A stretch of 64,000 nucleotides of DNA from a virus. The translations under genes were made by a program, and so were the position numbers. Below, piece after piece: positions 7,448-24,482 of the stretch. The stretch is from positions 1 through 64,000 of the IMG/VR virus record IMGVR_UViG_3300018875_000062; one strand, written 5' to 3'. The notes below the pieces were generated by a model. It was not told the origin of the DNA. It did not search any database and saw only the letters and a program-made list of their open reading frames with translations. Position 1 is the first letter of the stretch. Every line of letters starts with the position of its first letter.

Positions 7448-9494
7448 AACGGCCCTCATCCTTGAACCGCACGAAGGCAGCAGCACCCTCGGCCATGCGC
7501 TTCTCCCAGGCATCGGTCGAGGTGATGGACGGCAGCCGCCCCCGCTCCTTCTTGAAACGGACCGCACGCATCGCCAGCTCCTTCGCCTCCTCCGGAGAAA
7601 GGCTCGTCCGCTTGCCGGCGATGATCGCCGCAACCTGCTTGAGGCTGTCCTCGCTCATCGTCTTGGCAAGAATGGCATAAGCCTCGCCGAAGGGATTGAT
7701 CCGGTCGATCAGGTCGATATCGAGTTCGCGCACGCTCAGGGCGAACTGGCGGACGCCATCGATGAGGGCCGTGTTCCCGCCCGTCTCGGGGTCGGTCCTA
7801 CCCAACGCGGTTTCCTTGGCCTTCTGGGTCAGATTGAGGGCGGCGATGGCATGCTGCCTGACTGCCTCTTGGTCCTCGCTGTCCAGTTCGGGGTACTTGT
7901 CCTTGATGATCTTTCCTAACCGCAGCTGAGTCAGCTCCTCGGGCACGAGCTCCGGGTCGAACAGGCCGCGCTCGATGGCGCTCTTTTCCTGCACGAAGGC
8001 GGCGATCACCTCGTTGAGGTCCTCACGGCAGATGCGCGCGGCTTCCGGGCTTTTGGGTTCGGCAAGGCCCTTGATCTCGATCTGGAACTGGCCGCTTGCC
8101 TCGTTGAAGCCGACATTGCACTTGTCCGGGTCATAGCCACCCTCACCATAGTCGAAGCCAGGGGTGGGCCCGCTGTTCGGCTGCTTGGGCTTGAACTCGA
8201 AGCGCGGTGCCAGAACCTGCTCCATGAGAAGGCTCGCCGCGATGGCCTTGAGGGTGTCGTTCACCGCCTCCGTGACGGCCTGTTCGGATGCATCCGGCTC
8301 CGCGATCAAGTTGGTGAAGCGGGCGCGGGTCTTGCCCGGCGCGTCGCGGGTGGCGCGACCGATGATCTGCACGATCTCAGTCAGGCTTGAGCGATAGCCA
8401 ACCGTCAATGCATGCTCGCACCAGATCCAGTCGAAGCCCTCCTTGGCCATGCCAAGCGCGATGATGATGTCGACATGGTCCCGGTTGTTCTTCTGCGCCG
8501 GGTCTTTCAGCGCGGCGGAGACCCGCTCGCGCTTGGCGGGCTCGTCATCGACCAGATCGGCGATCCTGAGCACACGGCCCTCCGGCGTCTTCACCAGCTG
8601 GAAGCCGGTCGCTGGGTCAGTACCCTGCCACTCGCCTAGCGCCTCGATGATGTGCTCGACCTCCCGGATCTTGTCTTTCGTGCTCTCGCGGGAATTGACG
8701 TTAGGGATATGGACGATCGTCTTCTCGGCCGGGTCCAAAACCTTAAGGATGTCGTCGGCGTAGGAGCCGGAGTAGAAGAAATAGCCGATATCGAGCTGCT
8801 TCAGGTGCTCGTAGCCGTTCAGCTGCTCGTAATAGGTGTAGGTGACGGTGTCGAACTTCGCCTCGTCCTGCGGGGCTAGAACCGCCTCGGCATCGCCCCG
8901 GAAGTAGGATCCCGTCATCGCCACGATATGCACGCGGTCGCGGGCGATGAACTGGCCGAGGTGCGTCCCGAGCTTGTTGTCCGGGTTGGCCGAGACATGG
9001 TGGAACTCGTCCACGGCGATCAGCCGGTCGTCGAAAGCCTCGATCCCGAATTTGTCGACCGCGAAGCGGAAGGTGGCGTGGGTGCAGACCAGCACCTTGT
9101 CCTGGCTTTCGAGGAATGCGCCGACCGCATTGACCTTGCCGCCGTTGTCGCCGCCGGGGGCATCGCAGAGGTTCCATTTCGGGGCGACTTTCCAGTCCGC
9201 CCAGAATCCGAACCTGGTCAGCGGCTCGTCGTGGAAGCTGGAGCCGATGGATTTTTCCGGAACCACGATGATCGCCTGCTTGAGCCCCTGGTTGTGGAGC
9301 TTGTCAAGGGCGATGAACATGAGCGCGCGGCTCTTGCCTGAAGCAGGAGGCGACTTGATCAGAAGATACTGCTCTCCGCGCTTCTCATAGGCGCGCTCCT
9401 GCATCGGCCGCATGCCGAGCTCGTTCGCCTTGGCCGAGCGGCCGTTGTGAGCATAAGCGACCGAGACGGAGGGGGCTTTCTTATGATCGGTCAT
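7440..9494 (-). CDS. DEAD/DEAH-box (Res-type) helicase
   Basis: This 684-residue superfamily 2 ATPase has Walker A SPPASGKSRA (K54), Walker B VDEFHHVS (about 160), motif III MTGSYFRGDAE, and a motif VI region IIGRATRDAPGKTRA (about 380). This style resembles the ATPase subunits of type III and other multi-gene restriction systems. The C-terminal 280 residues are a partner-specific extension that I cannot assign. The start ATG overlaps the stop of the 70-residue gene (ATGA), and the stop overlaps the GIY-YIG start, so all sit on one message. It is predicted to translocate or unwind DNA for the nuclease downstream. Confidence 0.85.
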   Translation of the reverse strand: MTDHKKAPSVSVAYAHNGRSAKANELGMRPMQERAYEKRGEQYLLIKSPPASGKSRALMFIALDKLHNQGLKQAIIVVPEKSIGSSFHDEPLTRFGFWADWKVAPKWNLCDAPGGDNGGKVNAVGAFLESQDKVLVCTHATFRFAVDKFGIEAFDDRLIAVDEFHHVSANPDNKLGTHLGQFIARDRVHIVAMTGSYFRGDAEAVLAPQDEAKFDTVTYTYYEQLNGYEHLKQLDIGYFFYSGSYADDILKVLDPAEKTIVHIPNVNSRESTKDKIREVEHIIEALGEWQGTDPATGFQLVKTPEGRVLRIADLVDDEPAKRERVSAALKDPAQKNNRDHVDIIIALGMAKEGFDWIWCEHALTVGYRSSLTEIVQIIGRATRDAPGKTRARFTNLIAEPDASEQAVTEAVNDTLKAIAASLLMEQVLAPRFEFKPKQPNSGPTPGFDYGEGGYDPDKCNVGFNEASGQFQIEIKGLAEPKSPEAARICREDLNEVIAAFVQEKSAIERGLFDPELVPEELTQLRLGKIIKDKYPELDSEDQEAVRQHAIAALNLTQKAKETALGRTDPETGGNTALIDGVRQFALSVRELDIDLIDRINPFGEAYAILAKTMSEDSLKQVAAIIAGKRTSLSPEEAKELAMRAVRFKKERGRLPSITSTDAWEKRMAEGAAAFVRFKDEGRYE

Positions 9495-9703
9495 GCGCGG
9501 CGCTCCTCGGCAAAGTGTTTCTCGAAGGCCTTCACGCTGCCATAGGTCTCGGCTACGCGGGTCTGGACTTTGCGCATCATGTCGGATCCGCGTTCGGGCC
9601 AGCCATGGTGTTCGAACATGGCAGCGAAGCCGCCGAATTTACCCTGAGCGATCTCGGCGATGATCTTTGCATCACCCCCAGGCTTGTATGTGTTTGCTTT
9701 CAC
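9491..9703 (-). CDS. Small unknown protein coupled to methyltransferase and helicase genes
   Basis: This is a 70-residue protein starting at GTG. GTGA overlaps the methyltransferase stop and its own stop overlaps the helicase ATG, so it is translationally coupled on both sides. It is basic, with KIIAEIAQGKFGGFAAMFEHH in its first half and a helical VQTRVAETYGSVKAFEKHF segment at the end. No known domain is recognised. The tight coupling argues that it is a real structural or regulatory subunit of the system and not a chance ORF. Confidence 0.7.
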   Translation of the reverse strand: MKANTYKPGGDAKIIAEIAQGKFGGFAAMFEHHGWPERGSDMMRKVQTRVAETYGSVKAFEKHFAEERRA

Positions 9704-12480
9704 GCGTTTGCCCCCACCTTGCGCTTTCCGGCAGCTCCCTGTCCTGCCCTCATCTTCGTGTAGAGTTCGAATAGCTTCTCCAGCCGCTCCGTATCGTTGC
9801 GGAACCGGCGGCCGATATAGATGCGCTCCAGTACTTCATCGTTGCGCTCATGCGCCTCCCGAAGATCAGCGGGCATGTTGCTGGGATTGTAAAGTTCGGC
9901 GATCGTTGCAGGGAAATGCGCCTCGCGCGCCAAGAGGATGTCCTCAGCGGAGCGAGTCAGATCGGCCTTGTTCTTCTCGGTGAGCGAAGGAACGGGGAAT
10001 GTGTTCCAGCAAAGTGTATTCGTAAACCGATAGTCCGTTCTCATTCGCGCGCAGACAGCAGCGACCCAAGAGTGCATCATACGAGATACGACGATGCCCA
10101 ACACCCATAGTTCGGAGCACGGCATGCCGAATGCTAGGTTTGAAATAGCGGTTCCGGCCTGTAGCAATCCTGCAGGCAGGTAATCGCGATTTTCGGAGCT
10201 AGTAACAGGCACACAGATTAGTGGCACCTTGGGTAGTGGTTTACGCTCGTCGAACCGATACGCCCAGGCGGCTGCTTTCACCGTGGCCGCTTTAGAGCTT
10301 TCTAGCCGAAATTCTTTAACCCGCGCCACTCGGCTAGAGATGCTCGGGACTGCGAGGGCGTCATCGACACTTTGATCCTCTATCCAAAGGCAGTATCTGT
10401 TCGTCCCCCTTATCAACTCTATCGAGCCGACGAACGGACGAATGAATCTTCGGATCTGATCCTCTGTTAGGCCCAATTGCCCTACTTCGCTGCCTTCCAG
10501 CAGAAGGTGGCCGCCATCCGTGGGAGAGTTTCCACGATCAAATTCAGGAAGTCCCGAAATCTGGCTCCGCCGTGGTTCAACAATCGTGTTAGTGCCAGGG
10601 ATCAAATACGCGTTGATTGCAGGCACCTCACGAACGACGCTTAATCCATTGTCATCAATTTCAAATAGCTTCTTGCTTCCATGAAACGCGGCGGCAAAGC
10701 CAACGATCACAACCGTGACACCGGCATTGTGACTCGCGAGGTTCTTCCAGTTAAAGGAAGTATGAGCAAATATTATCTCATACCCGGCTTGAAACAGCAT
10801 CGGCCACAGAATCGCGGCTTGCTGCCCTTGACAGATTGAATTTGTCGCAACGAATGCTGTAGCTGACTTAGTGTGCCGCCCGTAAATAGCTGCTTTCATA
10901 AACCAGCCCGCCACATAGTCTAACGACTTCCAGTTCGCGGTGCTCTGGCTAAATATTGCCTCCAAGTCGGATTTTTGTTCTTGGGTCTGACGTTTACTGC
11001 CTAGGTAGGGCGGATTCCCACAGATGTAGGTCTCGCCACCTTCATTGTCGAAATCGATCTGCGCCTGTTCTAGCGGCGTGCTAAACAGATCATCAGCCTG
11101 GAATTTAACTCCCTTCCCCGTCGGCGGGCAGATGCTCAGCCAGTCGAGGCGCAGGGCGTTACCACAGGTAATCCAGTTCTGAGCATCCAGAGGCAGAAAC
11201 TCGGCTAAAGCCTCCTTCTGACCTCGATAGAGCACATCGCACTGATACTCTGCAATGATGAGGGCCAGGCGCGCGATCTCGGCCGGGAAATCGCGCAGCT
11301 CGATGCCCCTAAAGTTGGTGAGCGGGATTTCTGTGCGCCGGTCTGGCTCGCCGCGTCGCTTGTTGATCTCGGCCTCGATAGCCCGCATCTCCTTGTAGGC
11401 GATAACCAAGAAGTTGCCCGAGCCGCAGGCCGGGTCGAAGACTCTGATCTTCGCCATGCGATTGCGCAGGTTCAGGAGCTTGCGCGGGTTGTCCCCCGCC
11501 TCTTCCAGCTTCTCGCGCAGGTCGTCGAGGAAGAGCGGGTTCAGCACCTTCAGGATGTTCGGCACGCTGGTGTAGTGCATGCCGAGCGCGCCGCGCTCAT
11601 CATCGTCGGCGACCGCCTGGATCATCGAGCCGAAGATGTCCGGGTTGATCTTCCTCCAATCGAGGTTGCCGATGTGCAGCAGGTAGGAACGGGCGATTCG
11701 GCTGAAGCGCGGCACATCCGTACTGCCGGAGAACAAGCCGCCGTTCACATAGGGAAACGCATCGGCCCACCGGGGCATGCTGGCCGCCGCCCGGTCGGCG
11801 ATCTTCATGTTCATGGCGCGGAAGATCGTGCTGATCACCTCATGAGTGTTCGACGAGTCCTTCGCGCTCATTTGCTCGATGGTCGCCGTGAACAGGCGGT
11901 TGCCGACGAAGATGTCGGTATCCTCGGCGAAGAAGCAGAAGATCAGCCGCGCCATGAAGTGGTTCATGTCGGGGCGGCGCTGTGCGGTTCCCCAGTCGGG
12001 GTTGTCCTTCAGCAGTTCGACATAGAGGCGGTTCAGGCGGCCTGTCGCCTTGATGTCGAAGGAGCTTTCCCGGATCTGCCTGACGGTCGTGATCCCGGCC
12101 AGGGGCAGGAAGAAGCCGAAATGGTCCGGAAAGTCCCGATAGGCGCAGGCCACCGTCTCGCCGCTTGTCAGGTCCTCGGCCTCGAAATCCTCGCCATCGG
12201 TCGCCAGGACGAACCGTGCCTTCGCCCTGGCCGTGGCCGGGCTCGCCTTCAGGGCGGCCAGGGTCTTCGTCACCTCCCCGGAGGGGCAGACGGCGATATG
12301 AATGTTGTTCGTCTGGAGGACGCCGCCCAGGTCGGACTTGTTGGATGCGCCGGTGCGCAGCCGCTTGATCGTCGTTTCCTTGTTCCCGAACGCCTGGAGA
12401 AAGGCGAACGGAAATTCAGCGGGGTCGAATGGCTGCTCGGAAAGATCCGAGATGGCTTCTTCGATCTCAACGGCGTTCAT
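9700..12480 (-). CDS. MmeI-like N6-adenine DNA methyltransferase
   Basis: The protein has 926 residues when started at ATG 12480, which follows AAGGGGCTCC; an in-frame start 48 bp further upstream lacks a ribosome site. SAM-binding motif I is FDPACGSGNFLV (about residue 348) and catalytic motif IV is GNPPYLGS (about 487), both of the gamma-class adenine type. The N-terminal 170 residues resemble the MmeI-type N-terminus, but I see no PD-(D/E)xK nuclease motif, so the protein probably only methylates. Residues from about 560 to 800 should hold the target-recognition domain. The DNA for that part is noticeably AT-richer than both ends, as if swapped in. It is the second gene of a five-gene leftward set, 202 bp after the DUF262 gene. 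Confidence 0.85.
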   Translation of the reverse strand: MNAVEIEEAISDLSEQPFDPAEFPFAFLQAFGNKETTIKRLRTGASNKSDLGGVLQTNNIHIAVCPSGEVTKTLAALKASPATARAKARFVLATDGEDFEAEDLTSGETVACAYRDFPDHFGFFLPLAGITTVRQIRESSFDIKATGRLNRLYVELLKDNPDWGTAQRRPDMNHFMARLIFCFFAEDTDIFVGNRLFTATIEQMSAKDSSNTHEVISTIFRAMNMKIADRAAASMPRWADAFPYVNGGLFSGSTDVPRFSRIARSYLLHIGNLDWRKINPDIFGSMIQAVADDDERGALGMHYTSVPNILKVLNPLFLDDLREKLEEAGDNPRKLLNLRNRMAKIRVFDPACGSGNFLVIAYKEMRAIEAEINKRRGEPDRRTEIPLTNFRGIELRDFPAEIARLALIIAEYQCDVLYRGQKEALAEFLPLDAQNWITCGNALRLDWLSICPPTGKGVKFQADDLFSTPLEQAQIDFDNEGGETYICGNPPYLGSKRQTQEQKSDLEAIFSQSTANWKSLDYVAGWFMKAAIYGRHTKSATAFVATNSICQGQQAAILWPMLFQAGYEIIFAHTSFNWKNLASHNAGVTVVIVGFAAAFHGSKKLFEIDDNGLSVVREVPAINAYLIPGTNTIVEPRRSQISGLPEFDRGNSPTDGGHLLLEGSEVGQLGLTEDQIRRFIRPFVGSIELIRGTNRYCLWIEDQSVDDALAVPSISSRVARVKEFRLESSKAATVKAAAWAYRFDERKPLPKVPLICVPVTSSENRDYLPAGLLQAGTAISNLAFGMPCSELWVLGIVVSRMMHSWVAAVCARMRTDYRFTNTLCWNTFPVPSLTEKNKADLTRSAEDILLAREAHFPATIAELYNPSNMPADLREAHERNDEVLERIYIGRRFRNDTERLEKLFELYTKMRAGQGAAGKRKVGANA

Positions 12481-12682
12481 GGAGCCCCTTCCCCAATCCG
12501 TTCCGGATGTTTCTTGCGCCTCCCGCACAGCCGCTCAGGGAGCCGCCGGCTACCCGATGTGCCGCTGGGCGATGCCTGTTCTGTCTCCCGAAGGATGGGC
12601 CCCCGTCAAGAGTGCGACAACCTGTCCATGGCTGGGTAGGCTGGGCCCCGGCTCGCTGCCCCAGCCTCTGGTGGAAACGCCC

Positions 12683-14926
12683 TTACCCGAACCGCGACTT
12701 CACGTAATCCGTCACGGAGTTGCCGGACAGTTCCATGGTTGCATTGGCGCCACGGACAAAGAACCGGTGAACGGATCCGTCCTTGACGAAGGCAGGTTTG
12801 GGGCCCTTCTCGCAGCGCACCACCATAACCCGCTCTCCATCCTCATCCTCGAAGTGAGGATGGACATAGGGCAGGAAGATCTCGCCGACGCGGTCCTTGA
12901 GCAGGTTCACCAGATGCAGGCCCATCTTGTCCTCGTTGGGGAAGCCGTCCGCCGAGAGCCCGAGAACCTTCCCGTCATCCGCCACGCCGATCACCAGCGT
13001 TCCGCCACGTGCATTCAGGAAACCTGTGATGGTCTTGAGCGCGGCCAGATGCATCTTCTCGTCCGGCTGGCCCGTGTGCAGGTTCGTGCGCAAGGTCGAC
13101 TTGAACTCGATGCTCTCGCCCTCCCCCGCGGCAAGGAGATCGGCGACGGAAACGGCGGACGGCGCGGGCGCAGGCGTCTGCCCGCAGAGCTGCCGGTAGG
13201 CCTCCCGCACCAGATGCGCCATGCGCACCCGACGCTCCTTCAAGAACTCCTCATAGGGCAGCTCCCACCAGAGGGGCGGCAGGGCGTGCCATTTGTACAT
13301 GGTCTCCCGCTCCTGGGGCGAAAGGGCAGCGTCCAATGCCGGCGCGTAGTCCATGGGAGCCTTGTCGCTGATCTTCAGGTTGTCAGGCCATTCGACAACC
13401 GCGAAGTTCGCGATCTGGTTGACCTGCCGGTGCTCGGTGATGCCGAGCTTGGACAGGTAGGCGCGTGGAAAGAGATGGTGCTGCTCGAAGGTGGCCTTCG
13501 AGCCGTTGATCGCAGGGTTGACCATGTCCGCGATCTTGAGCGGGCTGTAGAGAGCGCGGGCACCTAGAAGGATCAGCGAAGCCTGATAGGCGAAGCGCGA
13601 GGGGCTTTGGGCCGCGGAGGTCGCAAGGCTCGAAGGCAGCGAGATATCCCAATAGTCCTTCGTCAGAGCCGTCGCGCACATCTGACGCAGTTTCGCCAGA
13701 TACTCATCGCCGCTCTTCAGGTCGCGCAGCTGCGCGATGTCGAACTCGAATGCGGTTTCGGGCGAGCTCGTGTAACGCCGTGTGAGCGAGGTCATGAAGA
13801 AGAATTCGGCGATGGCCTGCCGCATGATCTGCTTGTCGATGCCGTGATCGACAATGCCGATCAAGTAGAGGACATATGAATAAATAATCGCCGTTTCCGA
13901 CGTGATCATGCCCTCGTGGCGGTAGCCCGCCAGTGCCAGCGCGCTCAAGTAGTGGTGCCAATTCGCCAGGTTGACGACGCGGCTTTGCGCCAGCTTCAGG
14001 AGCTCGAACTGCGCATCCCGCTTCTGAGGATCGACCTCGCCCGTCACCGCGTCGCGACCTCTGAGCACGCTGTAGACGTTTTCAAGGCGTGCACGCTTCA
14101 GTCCCAGGCCAACACCCACTCGCAGAAGCTGATCCGGAGACGGCTTGATGAAATGGTTGAAGGGCGAGGGACCGCCCGCACTGGGTCGCGTCGCTTCGCC
14201 CGCGAACCGCTCCAGCTCCGCCCGTCCCTCGTCCCAGAAGACGGACATGAGGGTCATGATGAAGTCGGCTTGGTTGAGCTTCTTGCCCTCGCCGTTGATG
14301 CGCACGAACACGTCGGCGACGGCCTCGGCGTCAAGGGTCGAGCTCAAGGTCAAAGCCGTGAAGGTATATTGCGGAAGGTTATGCAGCTTGCCTATGGCCG
14401 CCTGCGCGCGGCTGATCTCCTCGGGCGTCAGATCCCGAACCTGCTTTAGACCCTCGAGATAGCGCATGGCTACATCGAAGACCGTCACGCCCGGCTGCCA
14501 CAACTCGGAAATGTCGGGGATATAGGCCTTGTCCTTGACGATGGACGCATCGGTCACATCGAAGCGGGCCTGCAGAGGATTGAAGGCTATCCGGATGCGC
14601 TCCTTCTTGAAGTTCGACCGCACCACCTCCTTGCCTTTAAGCACGGCATAGAGCGAGGTCAGCCGCTGCTGGCCATCGACGATCGCCAGCGATGGGGCAC
14701 GCTGGTGCTCCTTGGTGCCGATGGTCTTGTTGCCGGCGTCCGCTCCCGTTTCCCAGAACAGCAGGTAGCCAACAGGATAACCACGATAGAGCGAGTCGAA
14801 GAGGTTGCGGACATTGACGTTAGGCCAGACGAAGGGCCGCTGGATCTCCGGAAGCCCGATTTTGCCTAAGTCGATATCCTCGACGAGCGAGACAAGCGGA
14901 AATGCCGTCGTTGTAAACAGTGCCAC
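12683..14926 (-). CDS. GmrSD-like DUF262/HNH protein with C-terminal AlbA_2 domain
   Basis: This 747-residue protein starts at GTG behind GGGGGGTGAATC. Residues 1 to about 250 are a DUF262 (ParB/Srx-like) domain with the hallmark VDGQQRLTSLYAVLKG near residue 83. A GmrD-type HNH-like motif, EQHHLFPRAYL, lies near residue 470. The C-terminus (about 595-747) is an AlbA_2/Schlafen-type domain: GEGESIEFKSTLR, then TITGFLNARGGTLVIGVADDG. GmrSD enzymes restrict phage DNA with modified cytosines, and the DUF262 part hydrolyses NTP. The AlbA_2 fusion is less usual. It heads the operon of the MmeI-like methyltransferase, so it may be part of that system or an independent type IV enzyme. Confidence 0.8.
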   Translation of the reverse strand: MALFTTTAFPLVSLVEDIDLGKIGLPEIQRPFVWPNVNVRNLFDSLYRGYPVGYLLFWETGADAGNKTIGTKEHQRAPSLAIVDGQQRLTSLYAVLKGKEVVRSNFKKERIRIAFNPLQARFDVTDASIVKDKAYIPDISELWQPGVTVFDVAMRYLEGLKQVRDLTPEEISRAQAAIGKLHNLPQYTFTALTLSSTLDAEAVADVFVRINGEGKKLNQADFIMTLMSVFWDEGRAELERFAGEATRPSAGGPSPFNHFIKPSPDQLLRVGVGLGLKRARLENVYSVLRGRDAVTGEVDPQKRDAQFELLKLAQSRVVNLANWHHYLSALALAGYRHEGMITSETAIIYSYVLYLIGIVDHGIDKQIMRQAIAEFFFMTSLTRRYTSSPETAFEFDIAQLRDLKSGDEYLAKLRQMCATALTKDYWDISLPSSLATSAAQSPSRFAYQASLILLGARALYSPLKIADMVNPAINGSKATFEQHHLFPRAYLSKLGITEHRQVNQIANFAVVEWPDNLKISDKAPMDYAPALDAALSPQERETMYKWHALPPLWWELPYEEFLKERRVRMAHLVREAYRQLCGQTPAPAPSAVSVADLLAAGEGESIEFKSTLRTNLHTGQPDEKMHLAALKTITGFLNARGGTLVIGVADDGKVLGLSADGFPNEDKMGLHLVNLLKDRVGEIFLPYVHPHFEDEDGERVMVVRCEKGPKPAFVKDGSVHRFFVRGANATMELSGNSVTDYVKSRFG

Positions 14927-15196: not shown

Positions 15197-15661
15197 TTAT
15201 TTGGCGCTACATTGTATGGCGCTGCCGCCTTTCTCTTCTGACAGAGAGGCGCGAAGGAATTCTTGGAGCTTAATCGCAAGGGCATCGACATCCTTGGTCT
15301 CGCACTCCCAGACAACTAGTACGGACCAACCCTTGGCCTTTAGGGCATTCACGGCCTCCTCGTCTCGCTCGATGTTCCGTTTGAATTTAGCATGCCAATA
15401 CGCCGCTCGGGTCTTCGGTGTGGTTGTCCGGGAGCAGCCGTCATGACGGTGCCAGAAGCAGCCATGCACGAAGACCGCCTTTCGCAGGCGCGGGAAGATC
15501 AGATCCGGCGAGCCCGGCAGATCACGGCGATGCAAACGGAACCGATAGCCGAGGCGGTGAACCAAACTCCTGACAACGAGTTCGGGTTTCGTGTTCTTCC
15601 CACGGACACGCGACATAAGTGCCGAACGTTCAGCACTGGGAGGGGGATCGCGCTCTTTCAT
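15197..15661 (-). CDS. vsr: Very-short-patch mismatch endonuclease Vsr
   Basis: This 154-residue protein is of normal Vsr length. It shows the family motifs SRVRGKNTKPELVVRSL, the catalytic region LPGSPDLIFPRLRKAVFVHG (D53) and zinc or active-site residues in GCFWHRHDGC, ending in WSVLVVWECE. Vsr nicks T:G mismatches that arise by deamination of 5-methylcytosine, so it guards the host against the mutagenic cost of the adjacent C5 methyltransferase. It lies 69 bp after that gene on the same strand. The start could also be the internal ATG of MSRVRGKN. Confidence 0.9.
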   Translation of the reverse strand: MKERDPPPSAERSALMSRVRGKNTKPELVVRSLVHRLGYRFRLHRRDLPGSPDLIFPRLRKAVFVHGCFWHRHDGCSRTTTPKTRAAYWHAKFKRNIERDEEAVNALKAKGWSVLVVWECETKDVDALAIKLQEFLRASLSEEKGGSAIQCSAK

Positions 15662-15730
15662 ACCGATTTTCAGACATAGTAGTTGGCCATGCAGGATGGT
15701 AGAACCTCAAGCAGAGTTAGAGCGGTAGGG

Positions 15731-16876
15731 TCAGAACTTTAAGCGAGTCTCCGCAGCCTCAAGAGCTTCAAGGAAACCGGCTGGATACCGCAACGAAGAT
15801 CCCCGAGCGCGTTTAATAAAGCCGGATAACGCTCTCAGCGATAGTTGATCCCACCCTGTATCTTCAAAATCTAAGAGAGACGGAGCAGGAGTTGCGAGCG
15901 GTCTTTCGGAAACATTGCGGCTCCAGCGCTTTCCGCGCTCCCCGAAACATGCGCTTGGCCAAGGTTCCCCTGCAGCCAGCTCCCTTGTCGAGCCCAAGGC
16001 AGATCCTGGAGATTTGATTCGTTCACCCAGCCACGTCGCTACTGGAGCTGAAACGGCGTTTCCAACCAATCGCCAGCGCATACGTGGCAAGCCCGCGTCT
16101 GCAGCAGGCTTAGTCCAATTAACCGGGAAGCCCTGCAACAGCTCTGCCGTTTCGATGGTCGGGCGTAAAACTCTACCATCTGGAAAAAGGACCGCTGGAG
16201 GGGAGGCAATTCCGATTGCGGATCCAGACTTCAGAGGAGGAATAGCATCCCTTGTCAGGCCATTGCCTGATGAACCCTCTGTCCAATAGAAACCGATTGG
16301 AGCATCAAGGGATGGCGAGAGCTCTTCCGTAGATCCAGCATCATCAGCAAAAAGCACATCGCACGGATTTCCTTCCAACATGGCCAGGAAGAAGATCCTA
16401 CGCCTACGCTGCGGAACCCCAAAGGCCCGGGAGTCCACTATACGATATGCCCAACGATACCCAAGCTTCTCAAGCTTAGTGACCAATTGTTGCATAGCTG
16501 CGCCTCGATCCAGATGCAGCATAAAGTAAACATTCTCAATCAGTACCTTAGGGACCGTAGAATTCGCTAGCAGTGTGAATAAGTGCTCGACGGCAGACGA
16601 TTTCTTGCCCGTCAAACCTGCCTTTGTTCCGGCCATAGATAAGTCCTGACAAGGAAACCCTGCAGTGACAAGATCTACATTGGGGAGTGAAACTAGCTCG
16701 CTAACGTCTCCAACGACCTTCGTTTCAGGGAAGTGGGCTCGTAGAACCGCCTGAGCAGCTGGATCATTGTCGGCAGCTAAAACAGCATGAAACCCTGCCT
16801 GCGCTAGGCCATGCTCTAGGCCTCCAGCTCCAGCAAAGAGGGCCGCTGTGTTCAGACATAAGTCAGAATGAGTCAT
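15731..16876 (-). CDS. DNA (cytosine-5) methyltransferase
   Basis: This 381-residue protein has the ordered C5-methyltransferase motifs: I (AALFAGAGGLEHGLAQAGF), IV with the catalytic Cys76 in AGFPCQDLSMAG, VI (VLIENVYFML), VIII (RRRRIFFLAM) and X (RLVGNAVSAPVATWLGERI). The recognition region between VIII and X is short to moderate. It should make 5-methylcytosine in a site that cannot be predicted from sequence. It is followed by vsr and preceded, 15 bp away, by the unknown 231-residue gene, so it belongs to the five-gene operon headed by the ATPase/kinase protein. Confidence 0.92.
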   Translation of the reverse strand: MTHSDLCLNTAALFAGAGGLEHGLAQAGFHAVLAADNDPAAQAVLRAHFPETKVVGDVSELVSLPNVDLVTAGFPCQDLSMAGTKAGLTGKKSSAVEHLFTLLANSTVPKVLIENVYFMLHLDRGAAMQQLVTKLEKLGYRWAYRIVDSRAFGVPQRRRRIFFLAMLEGNPCDVLFADDAGSTEELSPSLDAPIGFYWTEGSSGNGLTRDAIPPLKSGSAIGIASPPAVLFPDGRVLRPTIETAELLQGFPVNWTKPAADAGLPRMRWRLVGNAVSAPVATWLGERIKSPGSALGSTRELAAGEPWPSACFGERGKRWSRNVSERPLATPAPSLLDFEDTGWDQLSLRALSGFIKRARGSSLRYPAGFLEALEAAETRLKF

Positions 16877-16891
16877 AAGGAATACAAATCA

Positions 16892-17587
16892 TTAGCTCGG
16901 CAAAGCAGAGAGCTTAGAGGTATAGTTCTGCAGCATATTGACACGTGTCGTCGCTTTATCTCCGTCCCAAAGTTGTTTGAGCTCGCTGATGTACGCCAAA
17001 ATTCTACTCTCCTGAGCATTCCTCACCCGGGCGATATGCGTCCGGTTGTTCCCTGCCAACTGTACCGTTTGCCACTCTACTGGGTGTAATTCGGACAGGA
17101 TCAAATCAAGACAGTCCGTTGGGAGGCATACATTTGACAACAACCTCGGTATTGGAAGATCGCACAAATTTTCTGATACTTGGAAATGAATCTGAGGGCC
17201 CCATTGATCAGAATTCTTGTAATCGAAATGAAACGGCAACTCGTATCCATTCTTCTTAAGCCTTAGATGCGTGGATATACGATCTATCTCCCACATTGGA
17301 ACTTTAGGCTTGGTACCCTCCTCCCGGAGAAACACACAATCGAAGGTGACCGACAGCTCTGTTTTAAGGTGCTTCCTGTTTGGCCCATCATAGTATTCTG
17401 AAGAGCGTATAATAATTTCTCTGTCCGTCGACCAGTGAAGTCGCGGAGTTCTCTCATCCACTTTGATTTGAAGATCCCGAAGCACATGAGTGAGTCGAAG
17501 AGTTGATGATTTATCAACGAAGTCTTCAGCAAGTTCGATAAAGGCCGCCATCTCGACGGTATATTTTTCAAGGTCAATTTTAGTCAT
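16892..17587 (-). CDS. Unknown protein in the kinase-methyltransferase operon
   Basis: This 231-residue protein has no domain I recognise. Its start overlaps the stop of the receiver gene (ATGA), and it ends 15 bp before the cytosine methyltransferase, so it is firmly in the operon. It is mixed alpha/beta in appearance, with charged and aromatic segments (TPRLHWSTDREIIIRSSEYY; NGYELPFHFDYKNSDQWGPQ), and has no signal or membrane segment. I see no clear PD-(D/E)xK or HNH motif. By position it could be the missing restriction nuclease or an adaptor, but nothing in the sequence decides this. Confidence 0.65.
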   Translation of the reverse strand: MTKIDLEKYTVEMAAFIELAEDFVDKSSTLRLTHVLRDLQIKVDERTPRLHWSTDREIIIRSSEYYDGPNRKHLKTELSVTFDCVFLREEGTKPKVPMWEIDRISTHLRLKKNGYELPFHFDYKNSDQWGPQIHFQVSENLCDLPIPRLLSNVCLPTDCLDLILSELHPVEWQTVQLAGNNRTHIARVRNAQESRILAYISELKQLWDGDKATTRVNMLQNYTSKLSALPS

Positions 17588-18723
17588 TGTTCACCGAGGA
17601 TTTCAGCTTGATCCTCGAGGCGGACTTTACGTGCGAGAGCCTTATCATTTTTCACAGCAGTGATAAGAACCCACGCTTCAGGGGCCTCTGGCGGGAAATG
17701 CTCGTCTGCAGCTCGAACACATTCCGCTGCATCGGCGATATTATCGGTCTCGACAAGGTCTGCATCTGATGTGACGACAGGGTCAGAGAACTTAAGCATT
17801 CTCAAACTTACAGGCACAACCAGCTCTTTTAGCGCAGCTTCACGCTCAGGTTTAGAACGCGGCAACTTAAGCCCAATCGAATCGATCCCTGCGCTCCACC
17901 ACCTAGGACCTGCGAATTCTGCTAATGCACCCGAATAAGCTACCTTAGTAAGTTCTTCCGCCAGCCTTGTTTTTTCAAGAAGAGCCTCTCTTAAGCATGC
18001 AAGCTCTATTCCAAGCCGAGCTGAGACATGCCGATCATTTATGAGAAAGCTCGGGTAGGGAATGATTTGACGGATCAGCCATCCAATCACTTCTCTTGCA
18101 GCTCGCTCATTAGAGTCGGCAACCCATTGAGGTGGCCGATGATGATTTACATCGCGAACGGCGCTTGTGGCCCAGCTAGCATCATTAGGAACTTTTAGAG
18201 CAGTTTCCGCAAATACCCTAGCATAGTTTTCCCACTCAACATCACGGAGGTGCCCTGCAAGATTCATCAATGTCTTATACCCATCCGCAAGGGCAATCGC
18301 TTCAGGCAGCACGGCAGGGTCAGTTTTCTGTGCTAGCCACTCTACACCAAGTTGCTCAGCGAGTACGTGGCGACGATTAGCATTTACAGCCTGTCCCAAG
18401 GCCGTCTCAAGATGATTGCTGACAACCATGGCAGGAGGCCGAGCATTCCCAATAACTAGTCGAAATTGCTGGAAAACACTTAGTCCGTTTGCAGCAACTC
18501 CACCTGACGAAAGATCAGGAGCAACCCTCTGTGCATCATCATTAAAAAAGTCAAAGATCCATAGGTTCGCATGTTGTGCGCCAGCCTTTGCTTGCTCCTG
18601 TTTGTCCTTGATGTCTGCTGGTGTGAAATCACAGAAGCGATCGCGGAGTCCGAGCTCTTCGGCCGGACCAAGAAGATCATCCGGTTCATCATCAACGAAA
18701 AAAATATCGGGACTGCTCGACAT
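17584..18723 (-). CDS. Receiver-domain protein with unknown C-terminal domain
   Basis: Residues 1 to about 145 of this 379-residue protein read as a response-regulator receiver. The acidic pair is D11/D12 in IFFVDDEPDD, the phospho-acceptor candidate is D58 in LWIFDFFNDD, the switch serine is S102 in PPAMVVSNHLE and the lysine is K133 in GVEWLAQKTD. All key receiver residues are thus in place. The remaining 230 residues have no DNA-binding helix-turn-helix or known output domain that I can see. The gene begins 3 bp after the ATPase/kinase stop and overlaps the next gene, which pairs it with the kinase. It is probably the partner that the kinase phosphorylates. Confidence 0.7.
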   Translation of the reverse strand: MSSSPDIFFVDDEPDDLLGPAEELGLRDRFCDFTPADIKDKQEQAKAGAQHANLWIFDFFNDDAQRVAPDLSSGGVAANGLSVFQQFRLVIGNARPPAMVVSNHLETALGQAVNANRRHVLAEQLGVEWLAQKTDPAVLPEAIALADGYKTLMNLAGHLRDVEWENYARVFAETALKVPNDASWATSAVRDVNHHRPPQWVADSNERAAREVIGWLIRQIIPYPSFLINDRHVSARLGIELACLREALLEKTRLAEELTKVAYSGALAEFAGPRWWSAGIDSIGLKLPRSKPEREAALKELVVPVSLRMLKFSDPVVTSDADLVETDNIADAAECVRAADEHFPPEAPEAWVLITAVKNDKALARKVRLEDQAEILGEQ

Positions 18724-18726
18724 GAC

Positions 18727-21033
18727 TTACCTACGTGGAATTGAAAACTCGATGGCCGTGGCAAAACCATTGGAAGGCACCACAAAATTGATAATCCCCC
18801 CATACTCCTGAACGAAGGCACGTGTGATCGTCAGTCCCATACCCATACCCTGACCGAGGATAGCGTCAGGACGTTCAGTAGTGGATTGGAATGCTTCGAA
18901 CAGCCGCCTCGAACTCCTCAAATCGACCGCTGTTCCAGTATTCTCCATTCTAACAACCATCGACTCTGAGTTCTCTCGCGCATTTACACGAATTCGGCCG
19001 CCCTCATCAGTAAATTTCACTGCATTGGAAAGTAGATTTGTGAAGACGCCAGACAGTTCGGCGGGGAACATAGGCGGTGTTCGCAAGTCGCTTGGTATGG
19101 CATTCTCAAGGGTAATCTTCTTTTGCTCAATCCTTGTTTGGAAGAAGGGCACAACGGTATCGAAGCGCTCATGGAGAGGTTGGCGTGTGCGCCGTCTACG
19201 ACCTTGAAAGCTAGTCGCATCAACTAGGTATGTGGCGTTTCGTTTAATGCGCTCTGCAAGGTCAAGGGCTGTAAGACGAGCCCGACGGATGCTAGCTTTA
19301 GTACTCGTATTGTTTCCAGATAGCGCCTCATCCAGATCAGCAACAATTCTTCCGGCCTGAAGAGCTGTGGCGTTTATCTCATGTACGAAGGCAGCGAGCT
19401 CCGTACCAAGACTCGCCAAAACACGCCACATGACAGCTTCGCTGCCAAATTGATCCGACAGGCTGCGAACATCTTCGAAGTGAGGCTGAGCTTGCGCTAC
19501 CGCTTTTGCAGCCTCTTCGTAGTTATTCTTTTCCAACGCGTTCTGGACGATTTCTAGCTGCCTCTGGGCTGCAAGTGCACTCTCTCGTACTCGAACAGCG
19601 GCAGGTGTCTCGCTAACATCGGCTCTCTGTGCCGCTCTCTTCTGCTTTTCGCGCTCTAGAGCAGTGATTTCGCGCACTTCCTGCCGTGCAGCATATCCAA
19701 GACGTACGATCAAGTCCGTAGCAACCCGGGTCCATTTGATGATAAAATCGAGCCCCTCACCCGGCAGGAAGCCTTCTCGATTAACCAACATACTGAGTTC
19801 TGGTGACGACGTACGATGCAAGAACACGCCACCCATATAAGCGCCGTTACCTTGGACGACTAACTCTTCCCCATCTGCCCCAGGGGGTAAATTTGCATCG
19901 GAGAGGCTACTCAAGCTAGTGAGTTGGCGCTTCGCACGGGATCTATAGGTTCGATCAAGACCAAGCCAATCATCATAGGGATCTCCATATGGTGGAACCC
20001 GGAAACCCTCCATAAATAACCGTATTCCTTGAACAGCAGGATCCCAGACCTTTCCAGATTGTTGAAGAATTCTCGCCCGGAAGGACGGACCAGCAGAAGA
20101 GCCTAAATTGCTCTTATAGCGATACCCTTCGGCTGTCGGTGCGCGCTCACGACCTTTCTTCGTCGGCAAAACGACTATTTGCAGCAGACCGCTGTTTCTG
20201 TCGTACTCTATTTCAGCAATCCAGTTCGCAGCCTGTGCTACATCGGGCGTCATAAGATCCGGAACTGCCAGATCTCCACCAAAGTCGATCCTGAAACCGG
20301 GATCAGACGACATCTGGTCCCTGATTGGAACTGTCTCAAAAAGCAATGGTTCTGAAACGAGCCAATCCGGGAGCTTTTGCCAGAGCACAGGTGTGGGAGA
20401 GAGAGTGACAGCCTCCTTTAAGAAGGCATTCTTCATCCTCTCATTCCATACTTTACGCAGGGGGAATAGTGTAAGCGTAGTGCCGCTCGACGTGCCCTTC
20501 TTTAATGACAGTTCTTGTAAACTGACAGCTCCAGAAGTCGGGATTTGGTCGAAAGTTTCGAGCCGCTCAATTTCTGCCCAGTTGATCGCAGCTTTGAAGG
20601 CAGAGACAGCGGGGGGCAGTTCGCGCGCCCCCCGAGGCGCGTCACCTGCCTTGCGAGATGACACCTCGACTTTCGTTGCCAACTTGTGTGCGGCAAGGCG
20701 GCCAACACCTTTCTCGCCGGTGAAGCGACGTCCAAAAACAGCAGATCGACGGTCTTTCGTCAGTTTTGAGCGTCCGGCTATCCGGAGAAAGCCATTCTCG
20801 AACTCTCCAGCGGACATCCCCAAGCCGTCATCTTTGACAATGATTCGACCTCTCAAGGGATCGTTTAGATATTCGCCAAGAACAACTACTTCCGTTGCGT
20901 CTGCATCGTAAGCATTCTTGATGAGCTCTACTAATGCTGTTGATTCTTTGGCAACCAGAAGCTCACCAAGTTCATGAAATAACTTAGTGTCCACTGTAAA
21001 TGTAGGTGGCTTTGACTTCTTAGGCTGATCCAT
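18727..21033 (-). CDS. Dual GHKL protein: HSP90/MORC-like ATPase fused to a histidine-kinase core
   Basis: The protein has 768 residues from ATG 21033; an in-frame start 57 bp upstream would add an unlikely segment. Residues 1-150 form a GHKL ATPase of the HSP90/MORC kind (VELIKNAYDAD about 40; VKDDGLGMS about 66; TGEKGVGRLAAHKLA about 108). A coiled, Ala/Gln-rich stretch (about 470-530) precedes a DHp-like helix, AFVHEINATALQ, with H551 as candidate phospho-histidine. A second GHKL domain ends the protein: FTNLLSNAVKFTDEGG (about 672) and GMGMGLTITRAFVQ (about 730). Its G1 box reads MENTG rather than the usual DNG/DTG. It heads the operon with receiver, unknown, C5 methyltransferase and vsr. 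MORC/MutL-type ATPases are known in restriction contexts; a full kinase half is unusual. Confidence 0.8.
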   Translation of the reverse strand: MDQPKKSKPPTFTVDTKLFHELGELLVAKESTALVELIKNAYDADATEVVVLGEYLNDPLRGRIIVKDDGLGMSAGEFENGFLRIAGRSKLTKDRRSAVFGRRFTGEKGVGRLAAHKLATKVEVSSRKAGDAPRGARELPPAVSAFKAAINWAEIERLETFDQIPTSGAVSLQELSLKKGTSSGTTLTLFPLRKVWNERMKNAFLKEAVTLSPTPVLWQKLPDWLVSEPLLFETVPIRDQMSSDPGFRIDFGGDLAVPDLMTPDVAQAANWIAEIEYDRNSGLLQIVVLPTKKGRERAPTAEGYRYKSNLGSSAGPSFRARILQQSGKVWDPAVQGIRLFMEGFRVPPYGDPYDDWLGLDRTYRSRAKRQLTSLSSLSDANLPPGADGEELVVQGNGAYMGGVFLHRTSSPELSMLVNREGFLPGEGLDFIIKWTRVATDLIVRLGYAARQEVREITALEREKQKRAAQRADVSETPAAVRVRESALAAQRQLEIVQNALEKNNYEEAAKAVAQAQPHFEDVRSLSDQFGSEAVMWRVLASLGTELAAFVHEINATALQAGRIVADLDEALSGNNTSTKASIRRARLTALDLAERIKRNATYLVDATSFQGRRRRTRQPLHERFDTVVPFFQTRIEQKKITLENAIPSDLRTPPMFPAELSGVFTNLLSNAVKFTDEGGRIRVNARENSESMVVRMENTGTAVDLRSSRRLFEAFQSTTERPDAILGQGMGMGLTITRAFVQEYGGIINFVVPSNGFATAIEFSIPRR

Positions 21034-21295
21034 TTTTCTTATATTAAGGATTCTGGAGAAAATAGGGAGTGGCCAGCATAGGAGGCCCATACAGTTGTGG
21101 CATGGGCGCTCCTACCTAATAATCCTTGCTCACCGCGCTTACGAGGCAGCATTGCGTTAACCTCGAAATCCCTCAATTGAGCCTCATAAGACGTGGACAG
21201 TTGCACCTCGGGAGCACCCAGGGTACGCCCGTGTGCTAACATAGCAGCCATAACAACTACTCCGCGAGTAGGAAATCTGACATAGGTTAACGACG
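21034..21295. promoter_or_regulatory. Divergent promoter region between kinase operon and adenine methyltransferase
   Basis: This 262-bp gap separates the leftward ATPase/kinase gene from the rightward methyltransferase and must carry both promoters. I see no exact consensus box. The leftward start is preceded by an AT-rich CCTTAATATAAGAAAA segment. A 70-codon leftward reading frame (21251-21039) lies inside it but has no ribosome site and no recognisable features, so I do not call it. Confidence 0.4.
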
Positions 21296-22810
21296 GTGCA
21301 TCAGGCTATTGATGAACTTCATGCGAGGTGCTCCGTCTATACGTCAGAGGCCGCATCAAGCCGGCTTCTTGACCTGATTGGTTGGACTGCAAGCCGTGAT
21401 TTGGCTTCGGCTTGCCTCTTAGAACCCTGTGTTGGCGAAGGGGCGATTCTTCTCGAAGCGATACAACGGCTGCTTAAGAGCTTCAAAAAATACGGAACTT
21501 CCCTTTCTAAAAAGAATCTTGAAGGCCGGATCCGAGGTTTCGAGCTCCATTCGAGGACAGCAGAAATTGCACGAGCTAGGGTGGTCGAGGCCCTAGAGAT
21601 AGCGGGAATCAAACCTGCAGTTGCTGCGAAGTTAGGGGAGGCGTGGATCCGAACAGGCGACTTCCTTTTGCACTCTGTAGGCAATGCAACCCACATAGCC
21701 GCTAACCCTCCGTATGTGCGGTGGTCTCGAGTTCCTGCCGCCTTGGCAATGCAGTATCGTCGAAGCCTCGTGCCTGAAGTCACTCGAGGGGATTTGTCCG
21801 TAGCCTTTCTAGACAGGATGCTCGATTGGGCAGGACAAAACGGTGTCGTGTCGGCCCTGGTGAGCGACAGGTGGATGTATGCTCAGTATGGCGATGTTTT
21901 CCGGGAACGTTTGGCGCAACGCGGATGGGAAGTGGAATTAATTGACGAGCGCCCTGCCGACGCATTCGTTCGGAAGGTTGGCGCCTATGCAGCCATTGTC
22001 CGTCTATCAAGATCGAAGCCGAAGAAGCTCGCTAAGACTGCTACCCCAAGCTCCAGAATAGCTTCTCAACATCTGTACGAGAAATTGCTGGAAAGACATG
22101 GCGATCTGGCATCTGCCGGCTGCGTAGTTCGGGTCGGGCCGGCCCTAGGATGCGGCCGGACCTTCATCGTGGATCCTCGAACTGCAGAGGGCATCGAGCC
22201 TGAACTTCTCCGGCCGTACGTTGGTCGGGAAGACGTCGATGGCACTCAGGCTTATCCGGGAGAGTTTCAGGTTGTTGCGCCGTTTGATAAGGACGGGCAA
22301 CTTGTTCGGCTCGAGGACTGGCCGCGCTTCAAGGCTTGGGCGGCAAAGCACAAGCAAAACTTACAGAAGAGACAGTTTGTCCAGGAGGGTGCTCCTTGGT
22401 GGCGAACCATCGATACAATCGGTCCGCAGTGGCTTGAACGTCCCAAGCTGCTGATTCCTGAGCTGTGCAAGGAGCCCATGGCTGCCCTAGACAGAACGCC
22501 AAGCATTCCTGCTCACTCCTTGTACGCAATTTGGTCTAGCGATTGGCCAATCAAACCCTTGCAACGCGTTCTCAATGCAGGGTTGCTAAAGCTGACGGCA
22601 GAGGCGCAGGCTCCAATGCTTCAGAAGGGTTGGTATCGCTTCTACAAGCGCTTCATACTGCGGACACCCCTGCCCTCCTGGCAGAAACTCACCGAAGCTC
22701 AGCGGAGTGGATTATCTAGTAGGTCTAACAGCGAGTTCATCGCTACTTTCGTCGCGCTTTTTGGTGAAGAAGCCCGGACCATGACCTGCCGGGGTCAACA
22801 GCAGGATTAA
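21296..22810 (+). CDS. N6-adenine DNA methyltransferase (Eco57I/TaqI-like)
   Basis: This 504-residue protein starts at GTG. Motif I is LLEPCVGEGAILLEAI (about 42), motif IV is ANPPYVRWSRVP (about 140), and a conserved segment AFLDRMLDWAGQNGVVSALVSDRWM follows in two parts. The C-terminal half should recognise the DNA target. The gamma-class order and the length match standalone TaqI/Eco57I-type enzymes. It is transcribed divergently from the kinase-C5 methyltransferase operon and shares its lower GC content, so both probably belong to one locus with two methylation specificities. No nuclease domain is visible. Confidence 0.85.
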   Translation: MHQAIDELHARCSVYTSEAASSRLLDLIGWTASRDLASACLLEPCVGEGAILLEAIQRLLKSFKKYGTSLSKKNLEGRIRGFELHSRTAEIARARVVEALEIAGIKPAVAAKLGEAWIRTGDFLLHSVGNATHIAANPPYVRWSRVPAALAMQYRRSLVPEVTRGDLSVAFLDRMLDWAGQNGVVSALVSDRWMYAQYGDVFRERLAQRGWEVELIDERPADAFVRKVGAYAAIVRLSRSKPKKLAKTATPSSRIASQHLYEKLLERHGDLASAGCVVRVGPALGCGRTFIVDPRTAEGIEPELLRPYVGREDVDGTQAYPGEFQVVAPFDKDGQLVRLEDWPRFKAWAAKHKQNLQKRQFVQEGAPWWRTIDTIGPQWLERPKLLIPELCKEPMAALDRTPSIPAHSLYAIWSSDWPIKPLQRVLNAGLLKLTAEAQAPMLQKGWYRFYKRFILRTPLPSWQKLTEAQRSGLSSRSNSEFIATFVALFGEEARTMTCRGQQQD

Positions 22811-23019: not shown

Positions 23020-24482
23020 TCAGGCAAGCCGCGTCTCGTCCCGATGGCGCTCGTCCGTCTCGCTGACTCCGCCGTGGCCCATGATGTCCTGGCGCCATTC
23101 GAGCACGACTTTCGCATCGATCAGGGCGTCGTTCCCAAGGTGCCGGATCGAGTGAAACGTCTTCCCTTCCCCGCTCTCGGCCGGAAGTGCCCTTGCCAGG
23201 GCTGGCACCCAATCGTCGTGGAGCTGGTCTCCCAAGGGAGCATTGCCGCTTGCTGGGAGCAGGTCCGGGAATAGGAGGTCGTAACCGAGCTGGTGAACGG
23301 CCCCGACGTATTCGCGCAGGCCAAGGCGCAGCAGCTCGGGATGGATCGGGAGCTTGCGCTTCGACTGAGGATTCTTGAGACGGCGATATTTGTTCGGACG
23401 CACCTCGAAATACGGAATCGCTCCCTCGAAGTGGACGTCCGCGATCATGAGCCCGCAGATCTCCTCCCGGCGCATCAGCAAATAGGCGGCAATCAGGGGA
23501 GCCCAGTACAGGCCATCGTGAACGACCACCGTCCCCGGCTTGAGCCTTGCCCCCTCCCCGCGGCAGCCGCGCCAGACCGGCAGGTCAAAGACCGTCGTTA
23601 GATCCGCCGCCGTGAAGGCGGCCCGGTCGTCACGGTCCCGCCCCTTCTTTCGGGCTCGCAGCGTCGTCAGGTTGAGCGCCTCCGCAGGCCGAAGGCCGCG
23701 CTGGGCTTCGGGCAGCTTCTTCGCCGCCACGAGCACTTCCTTGAGCGGACGGCTCGCGTCACGGGACGATTTTCCGTAGCTCCTCGGCAGGGTGAGAAGG
23801 GTGTCCACATAGGCAGCCACATCGGCCTGCCTGAGCCGGGTCAGGTCGTCGTACCCAACGACCTTCACCAGCAGACCGGCGGTCTGGCGCATCTGGCGGC
23901 AGGTTTTGTCGGTCCACTCTCTGAGCTGGAGCTTGGTCGCACAGCTTCTCGGCCAAGTCAGCGACGCCGGCCTGCACGGCGGCTTCCTGCGCCGGCTTTG
24001 GGGGATGACGCCCTTTCGGCGATAGAATCCAGAATGGTCTGGACCTCACCCGCCTCGGAAGGGTCGAGCCCACAGGAGCGCAGCCAGTCGGGATCGAGGG
24101 GGCCAGCAGCGACCCGTCCGCGCTCGGCGAGAAGGCGATAGACTGCGCCGCTGATCCGGTCCACGTGCTCTCCGCTCATGGGCTCAGGGGTCTTGAGCGT
24201 TCGATCGACCGTGGCGACGAGCTCGAGCATCGCGGCATGGCGGCGGGCAACAGTGATGAGGATCGCCCTCGCCTCGTCCGGGGCTAGGCGGCCGCGCTGC
24301 ATCTCGTCGAATACGACCTCGCTCATCGCGGTCAGCTCCGCTCCGATCCGGCGTGCCTCGGTCCAGTGGGGCAACTGCAGGCTGATCTGCAGAACCCGCC
24401 GTCCGTTCGCGCCACAAGCCGGGAGCCGGCGCCGCCAGCAATATACCGCACCGCGACGCATAAGATGAGAGCCGACCGGCAT
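23020..24482 (-). pseudogene. Tyrosine recombinase (DUF6538-type integrase), frameshifted and lacking its tyrosine
   Basis: The N-terminal part (24482 to about 24000) has the DUF6538 opening (MPVGSHLMRRGAVYCWRRRL). The middle (ADLAEKL, about 23970-23945) is in a second frame, and the catalytic part (about 23940 to 23020) is in a third, so two frameshifts break the gene, one probably at the G5 run near 24000. The catalytic half keeps RREEICGL and the FHSIRH (HxxR) box followed by DIMGHGG. The expected nucleophile is changed: the end reads SETDERHRDE, with codon CAT (plus-strand 23044-23046) where relatives have TAT. An intact gene would encode roughly 485 residues. It sits beside the tRNA-Gln fragment, fitting a dead island integrase. 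Confidence 0.8.

Follow-up and report, generated by a model that had tools for sequence, protein, structure and literature searches.

The first 64,000 bases of the IMG/VR virus record IMGVR_UViG_3300018875_000062 (69,729 bases in full), referred to here as the window, carry at positions 15,197–22,810 six genes in which a histidine kinase and a receiver protein stand beside two DNA methyltransferases. Comparison of this locus with its relatives in other genomes indicates that the conserved unit is made up of four of these genes, viz. an Eco57I-type (predicted adenine) methyltransferase, a kinase with two GHKL ATPase modules, the receiver and a third gene, which we will refer to as X. The existence of such a conserved module is nearly certain. 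A preliminary description of the window had proposed a candidate phosphorelay-controlled restriction-modification locus in which all six genes form one system. The two-component logic and the link to modification are upheld by the results given below, whereas the six-gene unit gives way to the four-gene core, because the two other genes, for a C5 cytosine methyltransferase (Dcm) and a Vsr endonuclease, are found near few core loci only.

The loci compared (designated by L numbers) were gathered by kinase similarity in a search of viral contigs and 84,980 species genomes, and two plasmid loci were added by means of the receiver. Since all but these two were chosen upon the kinase, the neighbouring genes provide independent evidence. 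In 78 loci a receiver of about 370 amino acids (aa) and then a third gene come after the kinase, and for this reason the gene set is not a chance grouping. Of the 65 loci whose flanks are complete, 57 have the Eco57I-type methyltransferase next to this core; counted over all loci, the methyltransferase lies on the same strand upstream in 31, on the same strand downstream in 31, divergently in 2 and convergently in 5. The hosts belong to the Proteobacteria, Bacteroidota, Acidobacteria, Actinobacteria, Planctomycetes, Myxococcota and Chloroflexi, and include one halophilic archaeon. The closest relatives of the window kinase (L001–L021; 33–65% identity) form one sub-clade, of which L002 lies on plasmid pTH2c of Rhizobium sp. 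TH2. Besides the window, Dcm was found near the core only in L003, L004, L005, L006 and L020, and it is missing from most of the 78 loci; Vsr accompanies the core only in the window and in L020, where all six families occur together. Based upon these neighbourhood counts, a fixed unit of six genes was rejected, and Dcm and Vsr are, as far as gene content indicates, accessories of the window's sub-clade, with Vsr travelling with Dcm. The preliminary description had named the lack of a conserved neighbourhood, or loss of the kinase histidine and receiver aspartate, as results that would speak against it; the neighbourhood is conserved and both residues are retained.

The degree to which the four genes share their history was assessed from protein distances in the 62 loci that contain all of them. 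The correlation was 0.94 for kinase and receiver, 0.86 for kinase and X, and 0.90 for receiver and X, compared with 0.54–0.60 for the methyltransferase against each of these three. The observed correlation was reached in none of 2000 permutations, and shared ancestry contributes to it. These values fit a tight cassette of kinase, receiver and X accompanied by a more replaceable modification gene.

The kinase gene (18,727–21,090, minus strand) encodes 787 aa, or 768 aa if translation starts at Met20. Both ATPase modules that had been proposed for it are present on a single chain, in the order N-terminal HATPase_c_3 (MORC/MutL-like; Pfam, 1.2e-16), a DHp-like helix with the phospho-accepting histidine in the motif FVHEI, and C-terminal HATPase_c (9.2e-19), and the two modules were found in 28 of 28 kinases of the window clade. 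The histidine, which is conserved in all 109 kinase homologues, is H570 of the longest open reading frame; the number H551 given to it earlier counts from the internal Met20. The N-terminal half (residues 31–216) resembles the GHKL ATPase module at the N-terminus of BbrUII/HgiDII-type restriction enzymes, but its score of 79 bits is far under the model cut-off of 550, and in the window protein, unlike those enzymes, this module is followed by a histidine kinase.

The receiver (17,584–18,723, minus strand; 379 aa), consisting of a REC domain and a C-terminal domain, possesses the complete set of active-site residues that had been claimed for it (D11/D12, D58, S102 and K133). D12 and D58 are retained in 77 of 77 homologues, K133 in 76% and S102 in 74%. 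Its profile matches solved CheY-like receivers (E 7e-6), and its predicted fold (predicted local distance difference test, pLDDT, 92.5) gave REC matches at a probability of 1.00 in the fold search. The locus thus exhibits the classical features of a two-component pair, i.e. a conserved phospho-histidine and a REC fold with acidic pair, aspartate, Ser/Thr and lysine, and based upon these residues functional phosphotransfer between kinase and receiver is very likely. The C-terminal domain (approximately residues 140–379) contains an invariant G265 and a conserved RWW motif; neither profile nor fold searches revealed a known relative of it. A nuclease domain in this half of the protein was considered and rejected, as none was found by either type of search, and neither Pfam nor the fold search revealed a DNA-binding domain in the window receiver. 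When the receiver was used as a single sequence to scan viral contigs, no relatives were retrieved; the kinase alignment was required for this purpose.

The third gene, X (16,892–17,587, minus strand; 231 aa), encodes a probable effector. It shows the motif HxD..(H/G)P..HxQ..PR and has a confidently predicted fold (pLDDT 88), for which no match better than E 0.07 was found in the PDB and BFVD. This motif resembles DUF2290, and in a single hhalign comparison X showed a remote match to this family over 58 columns with a probability of 94.6% (E 7e-8), two controls giving 0.2% and 0.3%; it lies below detection by the Pfam DUF2290 model. Family searches of Pfam, NCBIfam and PADLOC with the receiver and with X gave no convincing match for either protein. 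DUF2290 forms one half of a two-part system, helicase plus DUF2290, by which phage T7 is inhibited (Rousset et al., 2022, PMC9122126); in contrast to that system, the putative partner of X is a phosphorelay, and the genes next to X are Dcm and the receiver gene, not a helicase. The position of X is occupied by other proteins elsewhere. In Actinobacteria it is held by PDC-S70, which has been described as a PIN nuclease (PMC12988326), and in loci with a short receiver class of 210 aa by an HNH protein, recognized by PF01844 in L087 and by its C/H motif in L091, L107 and L110. That three unrelated proteins fill this slot, with two nuclease types among them, suggests that it is an effector position. 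No known restriction endonuclease was recognized at the locus and X itself has no nuclease match; on the above grounds we consider that X probably acts as an effector, and that the chances of its being a nuclease are about even.

The modification gene of the module also appears to be exchangeable. In four Bacteroidota loci that lack the N6-methyladenine (m6A) methyltransferase, phosphorothioation genes lie directly upstream of kinase, receiver and X, viz. SspA, SspB, SspC and SspD in L055 and SspBCD in L047, L048 and L051. Apart from SspD of L051, which was confirmed by PADLOC, the Ssp genes of the latter three loci were assigned by their matching size, order and start sequence. A reading of the 1072- and 367-aa neighbours in these four loci as unrelated genes was rejected, since PADLOC identified them in L055 and L051 as SspC and SspD. 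Hence, as judged from gene content, SspABCD or SspBCD takes the place of the m6A gene in Bacteroidota. In L051, a gene for PDC-S02, a PD-(D/E)xK-type candidate, is inserted between SspC and SspD (7811–8896).

The place next to SspD was surveyed in nine gammaproteobacterial SspD loci and three plasmids. It was held by a DUF262 protein of the SspE type in L148, L156 and L158, by an SspFGH-like trio in L150, L151, L153 and L157, by a helicase, GHKL ATPase and phospholipase-D set in L147 and L155 (the names of these latter two groups being based upon size and plasmid annotation instead of a profile), and by a kinase-receiver pair in L149 and L152; L154 is rearranged. Related pairs were found beside SspBCD, without SspE, in L149, L152, L159 and L161 (Methylorubrum, Ensifer and Acinetobacter baumannii). 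In Methylorubrum extorquens ATCC 55366, plasmid pME152 carries SspABCD together with a kinase and a receiver. In A. baumannii VB1190 (L159) SspBCD is convergent with genes for a 779-aa kinase and a 637-aa receiver, and in Ensifer adhaerens (L161) the arrangement is likewise one of SspBCD and a pair with no SspE nearby. The Ssp system of A. baumannii global clone 2, to which VB1190 may or may not belong, has been reported to have no cognate nuclease and a two-component system in its region (PMC12421847). A search of nine Ssp-bearing genomes with the kinase profile at a strict limit of 1e-60 gave no hits, which is not evidence of absence since the pair in L152 was found by other means. The kinase-receiver pairs, with X in Bacteroidota, lie next to SspD, in the usual place of the restriction component of Ssp systems (SspABCD with SspE or SspFGH). 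The window differs in having a methyltransferase where those loci have Ssp modification genes (a PADLOC scan of eight window proteins revealed no SspABCD gene), and an SspE-like role of the pair is only a candidate one. As a separate observation, the helicase, GHKL ATPase and phospholipase-D-like trio (L147, 12,241–16,449; L155, 9230–13,637) is possibly another new Ssp partner.

A kinase-receiver pair associated with C5 methyltransferases and Vsr was published in 2021 as HEF_HK/Response_reg_2 (PF19191 and PF19192; Bellieny-Rabelo et al., 2021, PMC8011034), so that the joining of two-component and restriction-modification logic, for which the preliminary description could name no system, does have a precedent. 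As in the window, that kinase combines HATPase_c_3, DHp and HATPase_c and lies beside a receiver; the two kinase groups align over their full length (hhalign 100%, 706 columns, E 3e-51), and the window pair also adjoins a C5 methyltransferase and Vsr, though this is untypical of its wider clade. However, the published type, represented here by L119–L122, consists of Dcm with a kinase of about 995 aa and a receiver of about 600 aa, whereas in the window clade the kinase (about 770 aa) and the receiver (about 370 aa) are shorter and are accompanied by a third gene and an adenine-type methyltransferase. Plain membership of the window clade in this family was rejected, as both Pfam models miss it while the controls match: PF19191 recognized none of 28 window-clade kinases at E ≤ 0.1 but did match the positive controls L122 and L152, and PF19192 recognized none of 77 receivers at E ≤ 0.01 and had no match in the window's record at E ≤ 10. 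Compared with four true PF19192 members, the window-clade receivers show marginal profile similarity (hhalign 6%). The kinase of L152 exceeds the PF19191 cut-off, so that the published HEF_HK family belongs among the Ssp-linked pairs.

Other known systems share particular features with the locus. The MORC/paraMORC restriction-modification operons (Iyer et al., 2008, PMC2292703) also combine a MutL-like GHKL ATPase with methyltransferases and Vsr, but the 2008 text describes no receiver or phosphorelay, and the usual partners there are superfamily II helicases. The presence of two DNA methyltransferases, identified by both Pfam and PADLOC, is a feature of type II restriction-modification. Detocs is a two-component anti-phage system in which histidine kinase and receiver logic serves defence, as may be the case here. 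Unlike the window, it is not known to have a DNA methyltransferase; PADLOC 2.0.0, which may not cover Detocs, gave no match to it among the eight window proteins. In a literature search, outside of which most subscription journals fall, no paper was found on the four-gene set, on X or on the occurrence of the set at Ssp loci.

A working explanation for these observations is that the locus is a modification-guided defence module in which an effector is gated by phosphotransfer. The adenine-type methyltransferase would mark the host DNA, and the MORC/MutL-like ATPase clamp of the kinase would sense DNA, or a state of DNA processing, that lacks the mark. The C-terminal half of the kinase would then phosphorylate His570, the phosphate would be handed to Asp58 of the receiver, and the C-terminal domain of the receiver would license X as an effector, probably acting on nucleic acid, with defence against phages as the presumed outcome. 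Dcm and Vsr would constitute an accessory methylation-plus-repair pair gained by the sub-clade. While it is highly probable that the cassette is linked to modification-based defence, the whole chain of steps is, at best, somewhat favoured. We also suggest, more tentatively and with the balance slightly against it, that the kinase-receiver cassette is a general and exchangeable restriction switch, paired independently with m6A, 5-methylcytosine (m5C) and phosphorothioate modification and with X, PIN, HNH or long-receiver effectors, and that it represents the restriction half seemingly absent from some Ssp loci, for example in A. baumannii; phosphotransfer would then be the trigger for discrimination between self and non-self DNA.

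Several observations weigh against this explanation. The structural identity of X is supported by no PDB match and by a DUF2290 similarity that spans just 58 columns, and the window's X has glycine where 71% of its relatives carry His130. The receivers at most Ssp loci (637–673 aa) are not accompanied by a separate X, and in L160 and L162 (Sinorhizobium terangae and Polaromonas) the pair occurs together with an SspFGH-like set, so that it is not the sole restriction part there. Lastly, because the C-terminal domain of the receiver matches nothing known, it may have a transcriptional output. The last two points agree with the main alternative, in which the pair would control transcription of the methyltransferase gene and of restriction genes in the vicinity, taking no part in the attack itself. 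Earlier authors have viewed related pairs in this manner (PMC8011034; PMC7464106), and the divergent intergenic region of 205 bp between the kinase and methyltransferase genes (21,091–21,295), a putative promoter site, could hold divergent promoters. However, the window receiver lacks a recognizable DNA-binding domain, the receiver is co-inherited with X, whose slot can be held by nuclease-type proteins, and in L055, L149, L152 and L159 no other recognized restriction gene lies beside the pair. In view of these results, we regard a purely regulatory role as rather unlikely.

Two further alternatives concern the composition of the system. If all six genes acted as one, m6A and m5C would both protect the DNA and Vsr would take part in the response; the co-occurrence of all six families in L020, the position of Dcm beside the core in L003, L005 and L006, and a low-GC block covering all six genes of the window are in accord with this. 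This proposal is nevertheless improbable in light of the absence of Dcm and Vsr from most core loci and of the standard role of Vsr, which is the repair of T:G mismatches arising from m5C deamination. It is even less probable that X functions as an ordinary type II restriction enzyme, with the kinase and receiver serving only as structural, MORC-like partners without phosphotransfer. Both the known partnership of MORC/paraMORC ATPases with restriction-modification genes (PMC2292703) and the BbrUII/HgiDII-like N-terminal half of the kinase lend some support to this idea; against it, the phospho-histidine, the receiver aspartate and an acidic-pair residue are conserved without exception across several phyla, archaea among them.

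As a rule, the decision to cut is made by a restriction enzyme on its own, at its site. If the phosphotransfer-gated explanation is correct, a phosphorelay between a sensing ATPase and an effector would add a tunable and reversible step to restriction, and this would account for the retention of an entire histidine kinase and receiver alongside DNA modification genes in both bacteria and archaea. The nuclease that is absent from the Ssp system of A. baumannii global clone 2 (PMC12421847) would also become a simple genetic question. The paired gene set provides a search profile for many candidate defence loci that are not named by current Pfam, NCBIfam and PADLOC models.

All six genes of the window are intact open reading frames and lie where the preliminary description had placed them. 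The adenine-type methyltransferase (Eco57I/N6 type; 21,296–22,810, plus strand; 504 aa) has the motif NPPY at residue 137 and matches Pfam Eco57I (3.3e-7) and PADLOC MTase_II (2.8e-91). The five leftward genes are closely spaced: kinase and receiver are separated by 3 bp, receiver and X overlap by 4 bp, and gaps of 15 bp and 69 bp follow between X and Dcm and between Dcm and Vsr. Dcm (15,731–16,876, minus strand; 381 aa) matches Pfam DNA_methylase (1.4e-45) and PADLOC MTase_II (3.2e-116), and its catalytic C76, like D58 of the receiver, was found as claimed. Vsr (15,197–15,661, minus strand; 154 aa) matches Pfam Vsr (4.5e-26) and TIGR00632 (140 bits over cut-off). The GC content at about 15–23 kb is 0.47–0.56, compared with about 0.60–0.65 across most of the flanks, which is consistent with acquisition of the six-gene segment as one block. 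Near-identical DNA of the locus was sought in plasmids and none was found.

Some additional gene associations were noted. In Bacteroidota, PbeA-/PbeC-like genes adjoin kinase, receiver and X in L047 (11,845–16,527) and L040 (4859–9500); PADLOC supports both genes in L047 and PbeC in L040, the PbeA-like gene of L040 being assigned by its start sequence alone. A gene with a DruA domain (L067, 8447–9736) adjoins a kinase-receiver-X set that has no methyltransferase. In the window itself, a complete MmeI-type IIG restriction enzyme-methyltransferase is encoded at 9700–12,528 (minus strand), and therefore the six-gene locus is part of a wider defence island. It adjoins a single open reading frame (12,683–14,926, minus strand) in which GmrSD_N (DUF262) is fused to a C-terminal SLFN/AlbA_2 domain, and which was recognized by PADLOC as HEC-05 and has weak similarity to SspE. 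A phage-integrase-type recombinase (23,020–23,892, minus strand) adjoins the methyltransferase where the low-GC block ends on the right. Further to the right, a short segment (46,044–46,096) matches, at 92%, the gene for the major capsid protein in the Rhizobium phages RHph_Y3_1 and Y3_56, and based upon this match the right-hand portion of the window is possibly a prophage.

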